The position numbers were made by a program, and so were the translations under genes. From Akkermansia muciniphila (lineage in GTDB: Bacteria > Verrucomicrobiota > Verrucomicrobiia > Verrucomicrobiales > Akkermansiaceae), in NCBI RefSeq assembly GCF_018709685.1, contig NZ_JABDHQ010000001.1, forward strand, positions 1-64,000: a stretch of 64,000 nucleotides of DNA, read 5' to 3'. Under the pieces are notes generated by a model. The model was given only the letters and a program-made list of their open reading frames with translations. It was not told the DNA's origin and did not search any database. Position 1 is the stretch's first letter; every line of letters starts with the position of its first letter. Shown piece after piece: positions 30,072 to 38,702 of the stretch.

Positions 30072-30087
30072 TGTTCCACGTAGAACA
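30072..30087. promoter_or_regulatory. parS: parS-like centromere site
   Basis: TGTTCCACGTAGAACA differs at one base from the perfect palindrome TGTTCCACGTGGAACA and closely matches the known ParB target consensus TGTTNCACGTGAAACA. It is intergenic, about 3.5 kb from the DnaA-box cluster. ParB loading here would help segregate the replicated origin. Confidence 0.8.
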
Positions 30088-30194: not shown

Positions 30195-31295
30195 TCAGTT
30201 GGGAGATCTCATCGGCATGAGCACGTACAGGAACTCATCGCCAATCTTCAGCACGCCCGGGCTCATTTCATCAATGAGATTCAGCGTAATGATCGTATCC
30301 CCGGCCATTGTCTTCAGGGGAGCCATGAAGAAATCCGGGTTGAAGGAAATGGAGAGCGGCCTTCCCGCATAAGTGATCGTCATGGATTCATGGGCTTCAC
30401 CCACGCCTTCCGCGCTGGAGGCCACTTCCAGCTCGTTTTCACGGAAGTTCAGCTTGATGTTCGTGCTCTTGTCCACGGAGAGGAGGGAAACGCGGCGCAC
30501 GGTTTCCAGCAGTTCACCGCAGGGAAGTTCTATGCTTTCCTTGCAATCCGTCGGGATGACCTGGCGGTAGTTCGGATAATTGCCGTCAATCAGCTTGCTG
30601 ATTAAAAGCGTATCATTGATTTCAAAAGCGGCCTGGTTGCGGGTGAACCGGATGGTGACGGTTCCCACTTCATCCAGAAGGCGGCGGAGTTCACCGACAG
30701 CCTTGGTGGGCAGGATGGCGTCCAGCTGCTGTTCTTCCGGGAATTCCAGGGCGGTTTCCGCCAGGGCCAGACGGCGGCCGTCCGTAGCCACCAGGGTCAT
30801 CTTGCCGTTGCGGAAGGAAAGGGAGATGCCGTTCAGCACGTAACGGGTGGTGTCCGTGGAGATGGCGTATTCCGTGCGGCGGATGCAGTCGCGCAGCAAA
30901 TTCTGGTCCACCTGGTAAACGGTCGCCTGTTCAAAGGAAGGCAATTCGGGGAATTCATCCGCCGGAAGGCCGTTCAGCTTGAATTGGGAGCGGCCGCATT
31001 CTACCGTTGCCTGGTTGCGCTGGTTGACGTCCACCTGGACTTCGGCTTCAGGAAGTTCGCTGATGATGCTCACCAGTTTTTTGGCGGGAAGAGTCACGGT
31101 GCCCTCGCGCAGCACGTTCGCGGGAACTACGCCGGTAATGCATACGTCAAGATCCGTAGCCGTAAAACGTACCTGGCCGTTTTCAGCTTCAATCTTGACG
31201 TTGGAAAGAATGGGCAGCGTCGTCTTGGAAGACACCACGCTGGCAACCTGTCTCAGACCGTCGAGAAATACTTGCTTGGAAATGGTAAACTTCAT
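30195..31295 (-). CDS. dnaN: DNA polymerase III sliding clamp (beta subunit)
   Basis: DnaN, 366 residues, full length. The ring-shaped dimer holds polymerase III on DNA. Three clamp domains are visible; the N-terminus KFTISKQVFLDGLRQVASVVSSKTTLPILSNV and C-terminal YVLMPMR are diagnostic. It has its own terminator. dnaA is not adjacent in this window. A group of DnaA-box-like sites lies 2.3-3.4 kb upstream of its start, consistent with the origin proposed there. Confidence 0.98.
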   Translation of the reverse strand: MKFTISKQVFLDGLRQVASVVSSKTTLPILSNVKIEAENGQVRFTATDLDVCITGVVPANVLREGTVTLPAKKLVSIISELPEAEVQVDVNQRNQATVECGRSQFKLNGLPADEFPELPSFEQATVYQVDQNLLRDCIRRTEYAISTDTTRYVLNGISLSFRNGKMTLVATDGRRLALAETALEFPEEQQLDAILPTKAVGELRRLLDEVGTVTIRFTRNQAAFEINDTLLISKLIDGNYPNYRQVIPTDCKESIELPCGELLETVRRVSLLSVDKSTNIKLNFRENELEVASSAEGVGEAHESMTITYAGRPLSISFNPDFFMAPLKTMAGDTIITLNLIDEMSPGVLKIGDEFLYVLMPMRSPN

Positions 31296-32561: not shown

Positions 32562-33479
32562 TCAGTCCTGGTTCATGCCTCCCGCGAACACCTCTCCCGG
32601 CATGGTCCAGGTTCCGGGAGGAACTACCCTGCCGGGCAGAACGACGGTATTGGCTCCCAGGCGCACATGATCCCCGATGACGGCGCCCAGCTTGTCCCTT
32701 CCCGTATCCTCCAGCCTTCCACCCGCCATCATCCTGTGCTTTCTTCCGTCATGCCGGAAATTGGAGCACACCGTTCCGGCTCCGAAGTTGACATCCGCGC
32801 CGATGATGGAATCTCCCGCATAGCTCAGATGCGGAATAAAGGTGTTATCCCCGATGATGCAATTTTTCAGTTCCACCCCCTGCCCCGCCACGCAGCCGTT
32901 CCCGATGGAAACACAGCCGCGCAAATGGCAATTGGGCCCTATCCTGCATCCGTCCCCCACCCAGACGGCCCCCTCCACCACCACGCCCGGCATCACCACG
33001 GTGCCCTTCCCCACCCGGAGCGCCCCCGTAACGTGAATGCCATCCTGCGCGGAAAAACTCCCTCCTTCCATCCCCTCCATCACTCTTTCCTGCCACGCCA
33101 GCAGGTCCCAGGGATAAACCAGGCGCTCCACCGGAGCCTCCTGCCGCGTGAAAACGCGTTTCAGCCCGCTTCCCTGCCCCTTCCGCGCCAGCAGGCGCCC
33201 TTCTCCACTCCACGCTTCCCCTGCCCCGCAGGCGGCAAGCCACGCGGCAGCCTGCGGGGAGAAATGATGCATGGACACTTCCACTACTTCCCCGATTCCT
33301 TCCGGAACATCTTCTCCAGGATTCAAAACCGTCTCAAAGCCCTCTTCCCGGAGCCGGGAAGCACAATACGCGGCTATGCTCACCCCCGCCACGGAAAAGC
33401 CGCAGAAAGGCCTTTCAGGGCCCGTTGCGGGAAAGGTAAGGTCCATCGCCGGGGTGTAAATCAGTCTGGCAGCCCTCAT
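32562..33479 (-). CDS. Left-handed beta-helix acyltransferase-like protein (GlmU/sugar nucleotidyltransferase relative)
   Basis: A 305-residue protein. The C-terminal half (about 140-285) is hexapeptide-repeat beta-helix sequence (VTGALRVGKGTVVMPGVVVEGAVWVGDGCRIGPNC, IIGDNTFIPHLSYAGDSIIGADVNFGAG) with the FRHDG motif resembling the GlmU acetyltransferase end. The N-terminal region (about 1-130) is not a full nucleotidyltransferase; no GXGTRM-type loop is seen. It may be a GlmU-like acetyltransferase or part of a two-domain sugar nucleotide enzyme. The start is ATG 33479 (MRAARLIYTP); an upstream frame to 33542 is Arg/Lys-rich and less likely. It points leftward from the origin-like region. 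Confidence 0.75.
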   Translation of the reverse strand: MRAARLIYTPAMDLTFPATGPERPFCGFSVAGVSIAAYCASRLREEGFETVLNPGEDVPEGIGEVVEVSMHHFSPQAAAWLAACGAGEAWSGEGRLLARKGQGSGLKRVFTRQEAPVERLVYPWDLLAWQERVMEGMEGGSFSAQDGIHVTGALRVGKGTVVMPGVVVEGAVWVGDGCRIGPNCHLRGCVSIGNGCVAGQGVELKNCIIGDNTFIPHLSYAGDSIIGADVNFGAGTVCSNFRHDGRKHRMMAGGRLEDTGRDKLGAVIGDHVRLGANTVVLPGRVVPPGTWTMPGEVFAGGMNQD

Positions 33480-33549
33480 GCATGCATGGTATGATTTCTT
33501 CCGGCGCCTCTGCAAGACGGAATGCACTGTCCCGTTCCGCATGCCAATA

Positions 33550-33765
33550 ACCGTGTGAACGGATGCGTTAATTAAGTGTGGGTACTGTGTGAATAAGTTA
33601 TTCAGATGTTATGCGCATTTCTATGGGCTGAATTTATTCACATTTGCGGAGTCTTGCAATTCCTTCATGGCTAAGGGATAAAAACGTTGTTCACATGAGG
33701 CACATGGTAGAAGAAGAAGAAATTTAATATTGTTAAATCTAATATTCTTCAATCACACAACGTGA
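33550..33765. promoter_or_regulatory. oriC: Probable replication origin: DnaA-box cluster with AT-rich element
   Basis: In the gap between divergent genes there are TTATTCACA at 33634-33642 and its reverse complement TGTGAATAA at 33588-33596. Near matches to TTATNCACA are TTATTCAGA (33598-33606), TTATGCGCA (33609-33617), TTGTTCACA (33687-33695) and CCGTTCACA on the minus strand (33554-33562). An AT-rich tract (about 33710-33757) follows and could be the unwinding element. Neighbours dnaN and mnmG, and parS-like sites on both sides, agree. dnaA itself is not in the window; the call is inference from these signals. Confidence 0.75.
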
Positions 33766-33801
33766 TTGTCCTCCCTCCGGGATTCGTGTTACAAGGTCCG
33801 C

Positions 33802-34857
33802 ATGAACACAGAGGACCAGGACGCCCGCTGGATGAACATGGCCGTTGAACTGGCCGCAAACGGAATCGGGCTGACAGCGCCGAACCCCTGTGTAGGAGCG
33901 GTCATTGTCCATGGGAACCGGGTAATCGGTTCCGGGTTTCATGAAAAAGCCGGCCTTCCCCATGCGGAAAGGAATGCCATAGCTGATGGAACAGCCAGAG
34001 GAAACGCCGGACTGTTTGCAGATTCCACCCTGTACGTCACTCTGGAGCCATGCAGCACCACCGGAAAAACGCCGCCCTGTACGGAAGCCATTCTGGAACA
34101 TCATTTCAAACGGGTGGTTTACGGTTCGGAGGATCCCAATCCCAGGCACCGCGGCGCTGCCGCTGAAATTCTTCAACGTGCGGGAATCCAGGTCACGCAG
34201 GGAATTCTGGAAAAGGAGTGCGACCGCCTGATCCGGGGGTTCCGGCTGAACATGCTGGAAGGGCGTCCGTGGGTGGTCGCAAAAAGTGCCATGTCCCTGG
34301 ATGGCCGCATTTCACGCAGTCCGGAACGTTCCCAGTGGCTGACGAATGAAGAATCCAGGGCTTTTGTGCATACCCTCCGTGCGGAGTGCGATGCCATTCT
34401 CACGGGAGGAAATACCATGCGCATGGATAATCCTTCCCTGACGATCAGGACTCCGGACCGCCCCATTTCTCCCCTGAAAGAGCAGCCCTGGCGCATTGTC
34501 CTGACTCATGACGCGGCGTCCATACCTGCGGATTCCATTTGCCTGACGGATGAATTCCGTGACCGTACCCTGATTGTGGAGAATGTTTCCAACTATTTGG
34601 AACTGCTACAAAATCTTTATAGTGACAGGAAAATCGGAATCATCCTGCTGGAAGCCGGAGGATGCCTGGTCAAGGAATTCCTGAAAGCAGGCCTGGTTGA
34701 CGAATGGGTGGGATTTTACGCTCCCATGATCACGGGAGGCGGCGCCGGCGGAGTGGAGGGCGGCGCATTCCTGGAACGCGAAGCCTATCTCAATCAGCCT
34801 GTTGTGAGAACCTTCGGGAATGACGTGTGCATCCGCGGTGACGTGCGCTACCGGTAA
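33802..34857 (+). CDS. ribD: Bifunctional riboflavin-biosynthesis deaminase/reductase RibD
   Basis: RibD, 351 residues. The N-terminal zinc deaminase domain has the metal-site motif HAERNAI and the PCSTTGKTPPCTEAI segment; the C-terminal reductase domain begins about residue 150 (RPWVVAKSAMSLDGRI). It converts the GTP-derived diaminopyrimidine through deamination and then NADPH reduction of the ribosyl side chain, steps 2 and 3 of riboflavin synthesis. The start is ATG 33802 (MNTEDQDARWMNMAVELA); a TTG at 33766 would add an unlikely leader. It stands alone, away from other rib genes, and directly to the right of the origin-like region. Confidence 0.95.
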   Translation: MNTEDQDARWMNMAVELAANGIGLTAPNPCVGAVIVHGNRVIGSGFHEKAGLPHAERNAIADGTARGNAGLFADSTLYVTLEPCSTTGKTPPCTEAILEHHFKRVVYGSEDPNPRHRGAAAEILQRAGIQVTQGILEKECDRLIRGFRLNMLEGRPWVVAKSAMSLDGRISRSPERSQWLTNEESRAFVHTLRAECDAILTGGNTMRMDNPSLTIRTPDRPISPLKEQPWRIVLTHDAASIPADSICLTDEFRDRTLIVENVSNYLELLQNLYSDRKIGIILLEAGGCLVKEFLKAGLVDEWVGFYAPMITGGGAGGVEGGAFLEREAYLNQPVVRTFGNDVCIRGDVRYR

Positions 34858-35509: not shown

Positions 35510-37387
35510 CTATCTTCCGCGCTTTTGCAGATGTACGAGCAGCAGGGCTATATCTGCTGGAGTAATGCCCGGAATGCGTGATGCCTGACCGATGGTGCCG
35601 GGGCGTATCTTTCCCAGCTTGACGACGGCCTCCTTTTTTAAGGCATGAACTTGTTCGTAATCAATGTCGGCAGGGATGGCTCTGCTTTCCATCCTTGTGA
35701 TTTTCTCCGCCTGTTTTTTCTGCCTTTCAATGTGCCCTTCATACTGGATATCCGTGGCAATGGCATCCAAATGTTCCACGTGGAACATTTTTTTCAGTTC
35801 TTCAGGCAACATGGTCCAGTCATTGCCGGGCCTCTTAAGCCAGGTGGACAGGGGGACGCCTTCATGTTTAACAAGGGAGGCTTGTGCCGTTCCCTCTTCA
35901 ATGGCGTTTTGCCGCGCTTCCGTTTTCAGGAATTCCTTACGAGTAATAAGACCGGTTTCAAAAGCAAGGGGGGCCAGGCGCAGGTCCGCATTGTCCTGGC
36001 GCAGCAGAAGCCTGAATTCCGCGCGGCTGGTGAACATGCGGTAGGGTTCGTCCGTGCCTTTGGTGACCAGGTCGTCTATCATGACGCCAATGTAGGATTG
36101 GTCCCGGCGCAGCACCAGGGAGGGTTTGTCCAGCACCTTCAGCGCTGCGTTTGTTCCCGCCATCAAACCTTGCGCGGCGGCTTCTTCATAACCGGAGGTG
36201 CCGTTGATCTGTCCCGCAAAGTACAGGTTTTCCACCAGCTTGGTTTCCAGCGTGGGATGCAGCTGGGTGGGCGGGCAGAAGTCATATTCCACCGCATATC
36301 CGGGCCGGATGAGCTGGGCGTTTTCCAGGCCGGGAATGGTGTGGATGAAATCGCATTGGGCGGAGTAGGGCAGGGAGGTGGAAACGCCGTTGAGATAGAA
36401 TTCCTCCGTGCCGCGCCCTTCCGGTTCCAGGAATACCTGGTGGCTCGTTTTTTCCGCGAAGCGCACGATTTTATCTTCAATGGAGGGGCAGTAACGGGGC
36501 CCTATGCCTTCTATGATGCCGCTGTAAAGAGGGCTGAATTTTAAATTCTCCCGGATGATGTCATGCGTAGCCTGGTTGGTGTAGGTAATCCAGCATGGCA
36601 TCTGCTCCATCCGGAAATCTTCGTCTCCCCAGGTGTTCAGGGTGCAGAAGGGCTCGGAAGAACGTTTCAAGACATCGCGGGAACGGTAGCTGAACAGGGC
36701 TTCCGGGGTGTCTCCCGGCTGCACTTCACAGACGGAAAAGTTTATGGACCTGCCATTGACGCGCGGAGAAGTTCCTGTTTTAAGCCGCTCTACCTGAAAG
36801 CCCAGAGCGGCCAGGTTCTTGGAGAGGCTGGAAGGGGCGCAGCCCATGCGTCCGCCCGTCACGTGCTGAAGCCCCACATGCAGCAGACCCTGCATGAAAG
36901 TCCCGGAGCAGATGACTACGCTGCGCGCGCAGATGGTGTAATCAAGGGAGGTGACGGCCCCCGTCACCTGTTGTTCTCCGTTCACGAGCAGACGGACCAC
37001 ATCCCCCTGGAACAAACGCACGCCGGGAGCAGTTTCCAGAACCATTTTCATTCGTGCGCGGTAGGCTGTTTTATCGCACTGGGCGCGGGGGGCGCGCACG
37101 CTGGGGCCCTTGGAGGCGTTCAGCATGCGGAACTGGATGGCGGTGGCGTCCGTGTTCAGTCCCATGGCTCCTCCCATGGCGTCTATTTCCCGGACAATGT
37201 GGCCCTTGGCAAGCCCTCCGATAGCCGGGTTGCAGGACATTTGTCCAATCGTATCCAGATTGTGGGTCAGGACGGCGACGGAACATCCCAGGCGGGAGGC
37301 CGCCAACGCCGCCTCAATGCCTGCGTGCCCGGCGCCGACGACAAGAACGTCAAACAGGGGGGAGGCTTGGGAAGAAGATGAATTCAT
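35510..37387 (-). CDS. mnmG: tRNA uridine-5-carboxymethylaminomethyl modification enzyme MnmG (GidA)
   Basis: MnmG, 625 residues. FAD-binding motif VVGAGHAGIEAALAASRLG at the N-terminus and the family's CNPAIGGLAKGHIVREIDAMGG are clear. With MnmE it modifies the wobble uridine of tRNAs. It starts with ATG 37387, overlapping the last base of the holA stop (TGATG), so translation is coupled. A perfect parS-like palindrome lies inside the coding region and reads MFHVEHL there, an unusual segment probably kept for its DNA function. mnmG (gidA) is commonly found at chromosome origins. Confidence 0.97.
   Translation of the reverse strand: MNSSSSQASPLFDVLVVGAGHAGIEAALAASRLGCSVAVLTHNLDTIGQMSCNPAIGGLAKGHIVREIDAMGGAMGLNTDATAIQFRMLNASKGPSVRAPRAQCDKTAYRARMKMVLETAPGVRLFQGDVVRLLVNGEQQVTGAVTSLDYTICARSVVICSGTFMQGLLHVGLQHVTGGRMGCAPSSLSKNLAALGFQVERLKTGTSPRVNGRSINFSVCEVQPGDTPEALFSYRSRDVLKRSSEPFCTLNTWGDEDFRMEQMPCWITYTNQATHDIIRENLKFSPLYSGIIEGIGPRYCPSIEDKIVRFAEKTSHQVFLEPEGRGTEEFYLNGVSTSLPYSAQCDFIHTIPGLENAQLIRPGYAVEYDFCPPTQLHPTLETKLVENLYFAGQINGTSGYEEAAAQGLMAGTNAALKVLDKPSLVLRRDQSYIGVMIDDLVTKGTDEPYRMFTSRAEFRLLLRQDNADLRLAPLAFETGLITRKEFLKTEARQNAIEEGTAQASLVKHEGVPLSTWLKRPGNDWTMLPEELKKMFHVEHLDAIATDIQYEGHIERQKKQAEKITRMESRAIPADIDYEQVHALKKEAVVKLGKIRPGTIGQASRIPGITPADIALLLVHLQKRGR
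35772..35787. promoter_or_regulatory. parS: parS site inside mnmG
   Basis: TGTTCCACGTGGAACA, a perfect 16-bp palindrome matching the ParB target consensus. It lies in the C-terminal part of mnmG and encodes FHVEH on the minus strand. Confidence 0.9.
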
Positions 37388-38493
37388 CAGGATGCGGAAC
37401 AGATGGCAAGACGGTGCAGAATCAGGCGCGGATCAAGCGAGGAAGACACCAGGGCCTTGTCTGCCTTCATGCATTCCTTCAGGGTTTGCTTCAACCGTTC
37501 GGTTTTGAATTTGGAGGCGTTCTGCGCCGCCAGGAAAAGCGGGTACGCATTGGGAGAGCCGTCTTTTTTCAGAGGAATCAGAGCGGCTGCATAGGAGGGC
37601 AGGGAAGAGATGCGGGCCGTAAATTCCTTGAAGTTGGTAGGCTTCAGGTTGAACGCGTCACATAAAAGCCTGGCGGCCAGCAGATTTCTCAGCGTTGGGA
37701 TGAACGCGGCGCGCATGATCGTGATAGCGTTTTCACCGCGTTCCAGTTGGAAGTCAATGAGGGAGATGGCCGCATCACTCTTTTTATTTTCCAGGGCGCG
37801 TGAAATTTCAAAAATAACGCCCGTGCGCGTCAGCGGAACCATGCGCTCCACATCCTCCGGCATCACGGTGCGCCTGTCCGCGCCCAGGTAGAGGTCCAGT
37901 TTTTCAATTTCGGAGATGATCTGGCGGGAAGATTCGCTGACGCGGTGAATGAACAACTCCAGGGCGGCGGAGTCAAAGCTCAGACCCCGTGCTCCAGCCT
38001 CCTTGTTGATCAGGGGCATCAGGCTGCCTTCCCAGCCGGCCTTGGTGATGTCCGGCTTGTTCAGTTCCTCCGCGGCGGCGGATTGGAGCAGGAATTTGTT
38101 AAAGGAACGGCGCTTGTCAAATTCAGAGGCGGAAATAAGCAGCAGGACGTCCGGTCCCAGGCCGCCTTCCAGCAAATGCCTGAGGGAATCAAGAGCGGCC
38201 TCCGTGGTGGAGGAGCGCCCCGTGACGGAATCCCCCAGAAAATTGCAGTTCTTCATCCAGACCACCTTGCGGCCCGGGAAGAAGGGAAGCGTGCGCAGGG
38301 CTTCCATGACCTGGCGCGTCACCTGGTCCGCTTCGTCGGAATCGCCGCAGGCCGCTTCCAGTATTTCATGGGAAAATTCATTCGTTCCTTCCGTCAGGGC
38401 GGTAAAGATGCCGGAAGCCTTTTCACGCACCATTCCTTCATCCGTTCCAAAAACGAGGTAAATGGCTGGTTGTTGTAAAGTGCTGGTGCCCAT
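37387..38493 (-). CDS. holA: DNA polymerase III delta subunit (clamp loader)
   Basis: HolA, 368 residues. The N-terminal AAA+-like region (AIYLVFGTDEGMVREKASGI) lacks the ATP-binding Walker A of the motor subunits, as normal for delta. The C-terminal collar domain contains NAITIMRAAFIPTLRNLLAARLL. It opens the DnaN clamp for loading. The start is ATG 38493; a GTG at 38523 is in-frame but less likely. It is coupled by a one-base overlap to mnmG, and it divides its strand from the divergent HtrA gene. Confidence 0.9.
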   Translation of the reverse strand: MGTSTLQQPAIYLVFGTDEGMVREKASGIFTALTEGTNEFSHEILEAACGDSDEADQVTRQVMEALRTLPFFPGRKVVWMKNCNFLGDSVTGRSSTTEAALDSLRHLLEGGLGPDVLLLISASEFDKRRSFNKFLLQSAAAEELNKPDITKAGWEGSLMPLINKEAGARGLSFDSAALELFIHRVSESSRQIISEIEKLDLYLGADRRTVMPEDVERMVPLTRTGVIFEISRALENKKSDAAISLIDFQLERGENAITIMRAAFIPTLRNLLAARLLCDAFNLKPTNFKEFTARISSLPSYAAALIPLKKDGSPNAYPLFLAAQNASKFKTERLKQTLKECMKADKALVSSSLDPRLILHRLAICSAS

Positions 38494-38702
38494 AAAACCG
38501 TACCCGTAGGTATCATAAAACACGCCTTGTTAAAAGACGTATTTGTCATTTGAAACTTTTTTCGTTTGAAGAAATTATGCTTAAATAGTATCAATAGGAG
38601 CGGAATGTCAAAAGATGGATGGAGTCTTCCACGCCCGTTTTCAGGCATTTCCCCGGTATTAAGGCGCAAACAGTTTGACCGTTGCTACGGCAAGGCATTT
38701 CC

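Follow-up and report, generated by a model that had tools for sequence, protein, structure and literature searches.

The chromosomal replication origin of Akkermansia very probably lies beside ribD, with an apparent change of DnaA-box specificity in one clade

Introduction

In Escherichia coli, dnaA lies tens of kilobases from oriC, which consists of a cluster of DnaA boxes and an AT-rich element without dnaA next to it. The BUS of the Bacillus subtilis type is arranged as tandem boxes, a short spacer, a repeat of three-base period and an AT-rich tract, and requires a DnaA box 0-16 bases from at least three trinucleotide repeats (PMC8287927). These repeats, the DnaA-trios, read 3'-GAT-5' in the 5'-tail adjoining the boxes (PMC8287927), and the trio strand has been described as T16-A17-G18 followed by G19-G20 toward the boxes (PMC10721633). 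In H. pylori the trios are on the lower strand (PMC8235120), and in C. difficile they appear as CTACTACTATTACTACTA on the complementary strand (PMC7561715). The boxes themselves are read by the base-contacting DnaA residues R399, P423, D433, H434, T435 and H439 (PMC7561715), among which D433 is described as highly conserved across all bacterial classes (PMC8235120). Box preferences departing from that of E. coli are found in epsilonproteobacteria and Thermotoga (PMC5043019, PMC10316083). These and the other published statements used here come from excerpts of the cited articles.

For the Verrucomicrobiota, the origin of Methylacidiphilum infernorum was located by GC skew and placed 250 nt upstream of dnaA (PMC2474590). 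A Hi-C study of 12 gut strains, including A. muciniphila YL44, assigned origins from skew and parS sites, taking the skew switch closest to the parS cluster, found coverage in agreement, and warned that origins need not systematically coincide with dnaA (PMC10197239). Its authors therefore probably already knew that the origin of A. muciniphila lies away from dnaA, and the statement in an earlier sequence-based note on this DNA (hereafter the original prediction) that the origin is little described in this phylum needs to be qualified by these two published cases. The excerpts of the Hi-C article describe the YL44 origin without a box array, an unwinding element or a position at base level, and contain neither its base-level anatomy, nor conservation across the genus, nor a switch of boxes.

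Here we examine a candidate origin in a window of 64,000 nucleotides, the opening 64 kb of contig C1 in a draft A. muciniphila genome (2.86 Mb, 48 contigs). The locus is ordinary in kind, almost certainly a bacterial oriC, with two unusual features. We lean toward the view that within one genus the initiator and the origin changed their code together in steps, and that a genus-wide unwinding module carries its trinucleotide repeats on the strand opposite to that published for DnaA-trios. Base-level coordinates of this origin bear on coverage-based growth-rate estimates, plasmid building and chromosome biology in a much-studied gut genus.

Results and Discussion

The original prediction had counted at least six DnaA-box-like 9-mers in about 140 bases. 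The cluster itself stands, while the count varies with how loosely a box is defined: five sites that differ from TTATNCACA at no more than one base fall within 108 bases (33588-33695), and nine sites with at most two mismatches lie between 33542 and 33757. The two exact TTATTCACA boxes in opposite orientation that had been reported are present at 33588-33596 (minus strand), a place where G017, G037 and G004 carry the same box, and at 33634-33642 (plus strand, by pattern match). Three plus-strand boxes have one mismatch each: TTATTCAGA at 33598-33606 (pattern match), TTATGCGCA at 33609-33617, where the three relatives have TTATCCACA or TTATTCACA, and TTGTTCACA at 33687-33695, identical in the three and closest to the AT-rich tract. 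Directly behind it, a weak second tandem box with two mismatches, TGAGGCACA (33696-33704, plus strand), aligns with the tandem boxes of other genus members. Across the whole window, 25 boxes fall within one mismatch, an ordinary tally given that shuffles yield 21.4 +/- 4.6. Five of them, however, start within 120 bases, whereas 200 dinucleotide shuffles gave at most three, and that once. It is the clustering of the boxes, rather than their number in the window, that is the non-chance feature.

As predicted, an AT-rich tract lies beside the boxes. It spans 33711-33753, is 84% A+T and contains two 15-base direct repeats (33720-33734 and 33735-33749); by its composition it is a probable unwinding element. 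Among 63,960 windows of 40 bases, 13 are as AT-rich as the best of this tract or more so, its own included. An imperfect inverted repeat (33705-33755) surrounds the AT-rich core, with arms at 33705-33727 and 33733-33755 that are 74% complementary.

The flanking genes are divergent, in line with the prediction. To the left, on the minus strand, is a gene for a GlmU-like acyltransferase (32562-33542; profile match below the curated cut-offs), which is the left neighbour in this clade; to the right, on the plus strand, is ribD (33766-34857; TIGR00326, 283 bits against a cut-off of 156), the conserved right neighbour, with the ATG at 33802 as its likelier start. Farther out, all on the minus strand, dnaN (30195-31295; TIGR00663, 328 bits, cut-off 138) was correctly placed to the left, at 2.3 kb rather than the 3 kb given earlier, and mnmG (gidA; 35510-37387; TIGR00136) and holA (37387-38523; TIGR01128) were correctly placed to the right. 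In the complete genomes G044, G004 and G015, mnmG, holA, the GlmU-like gene and ribD are kept together, and in G044 and G004 dnaN also belongs to the group; it was not found in the 20 kb examined around the G015 array.

Two parS-like sites had been predicted to flank the cluster, and pattern matching returned both: an exact TGTTCCACGTGGAACA inside mnmG (35772-35787) and TGTTCCACGTAGAACA, with one mismatch, at 30072-30087. One further place within two mismatches of parS exists in the window's genome, on contig C47; since a backward-read control also has two places at two mismatches, we counted only exact and one-mismatch sites. With this threshold, the sole parS sites in the 60 sampled stretches of G004 are two, one on each side and at most 3 kb from the array, and the sole site in the 60 sampled stretches of G015 is again at most 3 kb from it. 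In G044, where 60 kb were searched, one parS lies on each side of the array. As a separate observation, the excerpted Hi-C article reports no homologue of a known condensin in A. muciniphila despite its parS sites (PMC10197239).

Plotted cumulatively along the window, G-C reaches its lowest value at 33,400. Because a minimum within 64 kb proves little, we sampled the skew along complete members of the genus, the window's own genome being covered within the window. In G044, which belongs to the same species as the window (3,055,113 bases, 20 stretches), eight of the nine stretches up to 1,100,000 are negative and the remaining one is +0.004. Over 1,080,001-1,140,000 the skew runs from -0.035 through -0.001, in the stretch holding the array, to +0.037, and it is positive in four stretches from 1,120,001 to 1,442,000. 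The second arm has near-zero stretches between 1.68 and 2.23 Mb, a positive one at 2.49 Mb and negative ones at 2.70 and 2.90 Mb. Within the 60 kb around the array the minimum falls at 1,111,500, next to ribD (1,110,075-1,111,163, minus strand).

In G004 (3,175,525 bases, 60 stretches), skew is negative in each of the 24 stretches that precede 1,228,001, the array stretch is 0.000, the next (1,272,001) is -0.018, and beyond it the skew is mostly positive to 2.77 Mb. A two-break fit places the best switch at 1,325,001, with 1,228,001 nearly tied, and the local minimum is at 1,238,400, the array homologue occupying 1,237,851-1,238,137. G015 (3,497,179 bases, 60 stretches) is a more distant case, its RibD being 57% identical. 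Here the best two-break fit gives 416,001 and 2,320,001, and the stretch 416,001-436,000 contains ribD (425,301). At finer scale the curve is lowest at 417,500, which is 7.7 kb to the left of the array, and dips almost as far at 425,100. The genome-wide skew check that the original prediction had proposed, carried out by sampling these three complete relatives since the window's own genome is a draft in 48 contigs, thus places the homologous array at or near the negative-to-positive turn in each of them.

The dnaA gene is 1.24 Mb from the array in G004, 1.12 Mb in G015 and 1.11 Mb in G044, which corresponds to 78%, 64% and 73% of half the chromosome, respectively. The locus resembles E. coli oriC in combining a box cluster and an AT-rich element without dnaA adjacent, and differs from it in that, in the three complete genomes, the distance from origin to dnaA amounts to 64-78% of that to the opposite chromosomal point. 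Likewise, the origin shares with that of Methylacidiphilum infernorum the phylum and the evidence of GC skew, but lies beside ribD. No skew switch occurs at dnaA in G004, G015 or G044, where the gene lies inside one skew arm. In the window's own genome dnaA is on another contig, C45, as expected from the claim that it does not adjoin the cluster, and no box with at most one mismatch was found in 2,701 bases around it. An origin at dnaA was accordingly rejected. The numbering of complete records, G044 and G004 among them, starts at dnaA, and an annotation that sets the origin at this gene would, as had been foreseen, miss a site 1.11-1.24 Mb away.

We considered whether the array could instead titrate DnaA, or be a promoter cluster through which DnaA regulates ribD or the gene diverging from it, with the origin elsewhere, for example at dnaA. 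Such a role would fit the position of the array upstream of ribD and the TTGACA/TACAAT promoter-like motifs seen by eye between array and ribD in many aligned genus members. It would leave unexplained why the skew switches at or near the array, and not at dnaA, in three complete genomes, why boxes are missing around dnaA of the window's genome, and why parS adjoins the array. We regard this explanation as very improbable.

We then surveyed 76 genomes of the genus. RibD was found at E 1e-30 in 73 of them (none in G005, G046 and G058), and from 71 genomes the 430 bases upstream of ribD were taken, G012, whose locus is cut off at a contig end, and G068 also being left out. The window's RibD is 80-87% identical to those of four close relatives (two A. 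muciniphila, one Akkermansia sp. and one Akkermansiaceae). Core sites of the form TT[AG][TC]N[C/G]AC number 353 in the 71 sequences, against 76 when the same sequences are read backwards. At least two are present in 66 of the 71, and a single one in G013, G014, G025, G049 and G075. An alignment of the loci upstream of ribD from 29 of the first 30 genus members (one is incomplete) has a common layout: boxes in both orientations come first, then a tandem pair that a short spacer separates from a trinucleotide repeat, and last the AT-rich tract. Since the left flank, judged by eye, varies between clades, the array together with ribD forms the stable unit.

Outside the genus the picture changes. 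No box with at most one mismatch occurs in the 500 bases before ribD in any of 12 loci, drawn from 12 of 47 genomes of the order and including one from the same family; we therefore dropped the idea of a ribD-side origin in other families. A pattern search across the phylum matched two of 387 genomes, both in the genus, but carries no information, since the same pattern missed the window's own genome. As far as sampled, the ribD-side origin appears to be particular to the genus.

The prediction of a chromosomal origin is upheld by the agreement of the array, the AT-rich tract, the skew switch, the parS sites, the conservation across the genus and, as described below, the co-variation of boxes and DnaA recognition helix in a sister clade. 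We hold it to be almost certain that the stretch from about 33,585 to 33,755 is oriC of this Akkermansia chromosome. From these features we infer the course of initiation: how DnaA binds and how strong each box is, and likewise the melting of the DNA, the loading of the helicase and the binding of ParB. DnaA would bind the array, most strongly at the opposed exact pair and at the TTGTTCACA box beside the AT-rich tract, and would melt the AT-rich core at 33711-33753, letting the helicase in. Two forks would then depart, one leftward and one rightward, and ParB on the flanking parS sites would segregate the origins.

The first unusual feature concerns the putative unwinding module. At the position expected for DnaA-trios, 12 bases after TTGTTCACA, begins the trinucleotide repeat TAGAAGAAGAAGAAA (33708-33722, plus strand), represented by GATGATGATGAA in many other genus members. 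Like the BUS of B. subtilis type, the locus has tandem boxes, a short spacer, a repeat of three-base period and an AT-rich tract in the same order. The spacing and repeat number required of a BUS are present in the window and in 47 of 71 genus members (a box, 1-17 bases, then GA[A/T] three times), against a shuffle mean of 0.0; under other versions of the test, matches rose or fell to 46 of 71 (shuffles averaging 0.8 and reaching at most 5) and 58 of 71 (averaging 3.5 and reaching at most 10).

The polarity, in sharp contrast, is reversed. Moving away from the box on the box strand one reads GAT or GAA here, where the published polarity predicts CTA, which puts the adenines of the repeat on the strand of the box, opposite to that of the published 3'-GAT-5' trios. 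A search with the published polarity (a box, then [C/T]T[A/T] three times) matched none of the 71 sequences on the ribD strand and one on the other (shuffle mean 0.3). On this ground we dropped the identification of the repeat as a DnaA-trio.

In an alignment to 8btg read by hand, with the residue list of PMC10721633, the DnaA of the window's genome agrees with B. subtilis at seven of the nine compared positions that contact or flank the trio strand (E183, N187, I190, R202, K222, E223 and E228) and differs at I193, which is Ser, and N196, which is Gln. The repeat may still do the job of DnaA-trios despite its opposite strand. Its reverse complement, TC[A/T]TC, is enriched beyond the core, occurring there within 60 bases in 29 of 46 sequences, against a shuffle mean of 11.3 and maximum of 22, counts that are inflated by relatedness. 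A reversed repeat of this kind tests how general the DnaA-trio model is.

The second unusual feature is a change in the boxes themselves. Five genomes, G001, G003, G031, G061 and G064, have GAC-type rather than CAC-type boxes, with TTGCTGACA, TTACTGACA, TTATTGACA and similar sequences aligned in place of TTATTCACA. We compared this with the DnaA recognition helix, numbering residues by alignment with domain IV of E. coli DnaA (1J1V). The signature could be read in 72 of 76 genomes (all except G008, G012, G020 and G035), and array and signature together are available in 68. The helix reads GGRSHATVLNA in G001, G003, G031 and G061, and GGRSHGTVIAA in G064. Ser at position D433 and loss of His439 are confined to these five of the 72 DnaAs. 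Residue 439 is Asn in the first four and Ala in G064, and the four also carry Ala at T435. The remaining 67 DnaAs all have Asp433 and His439, residue 435 being Gly in 63, Ser in three and Thr in one.

Boxes and protein co-vary. The 63 genomes with Asp433 contain 269 CAC and 38 GAC core sites, with a CAC majority in 60, two ties (G069 and G072) and one reverse case (G075, Asp433 with no CAC and one GAC site). The five with Ser433 contain two CAC and 27 GAC core sites, with a GAC majority in all five, although the GAC sites are unevenly distributed (ten in G064, eight in G003, four in G031, three in G001 and two in G061). In a tree of 32 RibD sequences the five form one clade (support 100/100) with G064 outside the other four, which means that there was a single switch with a single intermediate rather than five separate occurrences.

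In the ancestor of the five, a first step could have replaced Asp433, now Ser, and removed His439 while box position 6 went from C to G, a state to which G064 may be compared (Ser433, Ala439, boxes mostly TTATTGACA). In a second step, on the branch to G001, G003, G031 and G061, Ala435 and Asn439 would have been added and box positions 3-4 changed as well, giving TTGCTGACA and its relatives. We read the array as the working target of DnaA and the change as a stepwise shift of specificity, a reading in which binding and the direction of cause are inferred. The CAC-to-GAC change together with the DnaA change is an apparent natural change of DnaA-box specificity. In the open-access literature, as far as excerpts were available, we found no published case of such a joint box and recognition-helix switch. 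The epsilonproteobacterial and Thermotoga variants resemble it in that box preference departs from that of E. coli, but TTGCTGACA or TTATTGACA boxes combined with Ser433 were not found in the excerpts of those articles (PMC5043019, PMC10316083). In this clade nature provides an ordered series of protein and DNA changes, with which one can ask how an essential initiator shifts its specificity in concert with many binding sites.

Could the CAC-to-GAC change be drift or an altered mutation bias, independent of DnaA? The single clade with 100/100 support leaves one or two events rather than five, 38 GAC sites occur in Asp433 genomes too, and G001 and G061 have few strict-pattern sites (three and two), all of which leave room for such an account. 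Yet several boxes of one array are altered, in both orientations, while the adjacent trinucleotide module is spared; the change coincides with Ser at the highly conserved D433 position (PMC8235120); and G064 combines a distinct, less altered recognition helix with less altered boxes. We consider drift unlikely and prefer a joint change of boxes and protein.

The same co-variation bears on whether an ancestral origin is what the skew switch and the parS sites record, with initiation now at another site. Skew reflects past replication and changes slowly, and origin position varies among Verrucomicrobiota (PMC2474590), as such a relic would have it. The array, however, is conserved and co-varies with DnaA in the sister clade, which suggests continuing selection, and coverage matched the skew/parS origin in A. 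muciniphila (PMC10197239). We give an abandoned origin next to no credence, and take the array to be the present oriC.

Several minor observations were made along the way. The array of G075 (C29, upstream of 17097) has looser boxes, TAATTCACA, TTATCAACA and TTATTGACA, though its DnaA keeps Asp433, and is a second departure from the usual pattern. Genome-wide, TTRYTGACA occurs 22-42 times in the five genomes using such boxes, against 109 times in G002. In G003, four of 28 such sites fall inside the array, within 142 bases, and in G031 three of 22. The scarcity perhaps reflects selection against stray DnaA sites, in a comparison where base composition is uncontrolled and where G002 also has the higher count in the backward-read control. 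In G041, the ribD match is in two pieces (C1:971941-972992), the larger with two internal stop codons, and this split ribD adjoins an array with three canonical boxes.

Two further exact TTATTCACA pairs exist in the window's genome, C11:1961/1983 and C47:141259/141327. We set them aside as rival arrays, each having, by eye, two exact boxes and no array or comparable AT tract. The C11 boxes (1961-1991) are 22 bases apart, in the same orientation and in GC-rich surroundings. Those on C47 (141259-141335), 68 bases apart, stand beside the apparent start of a reverse-strand gene and are possibly a DnaA-regulated promoter.
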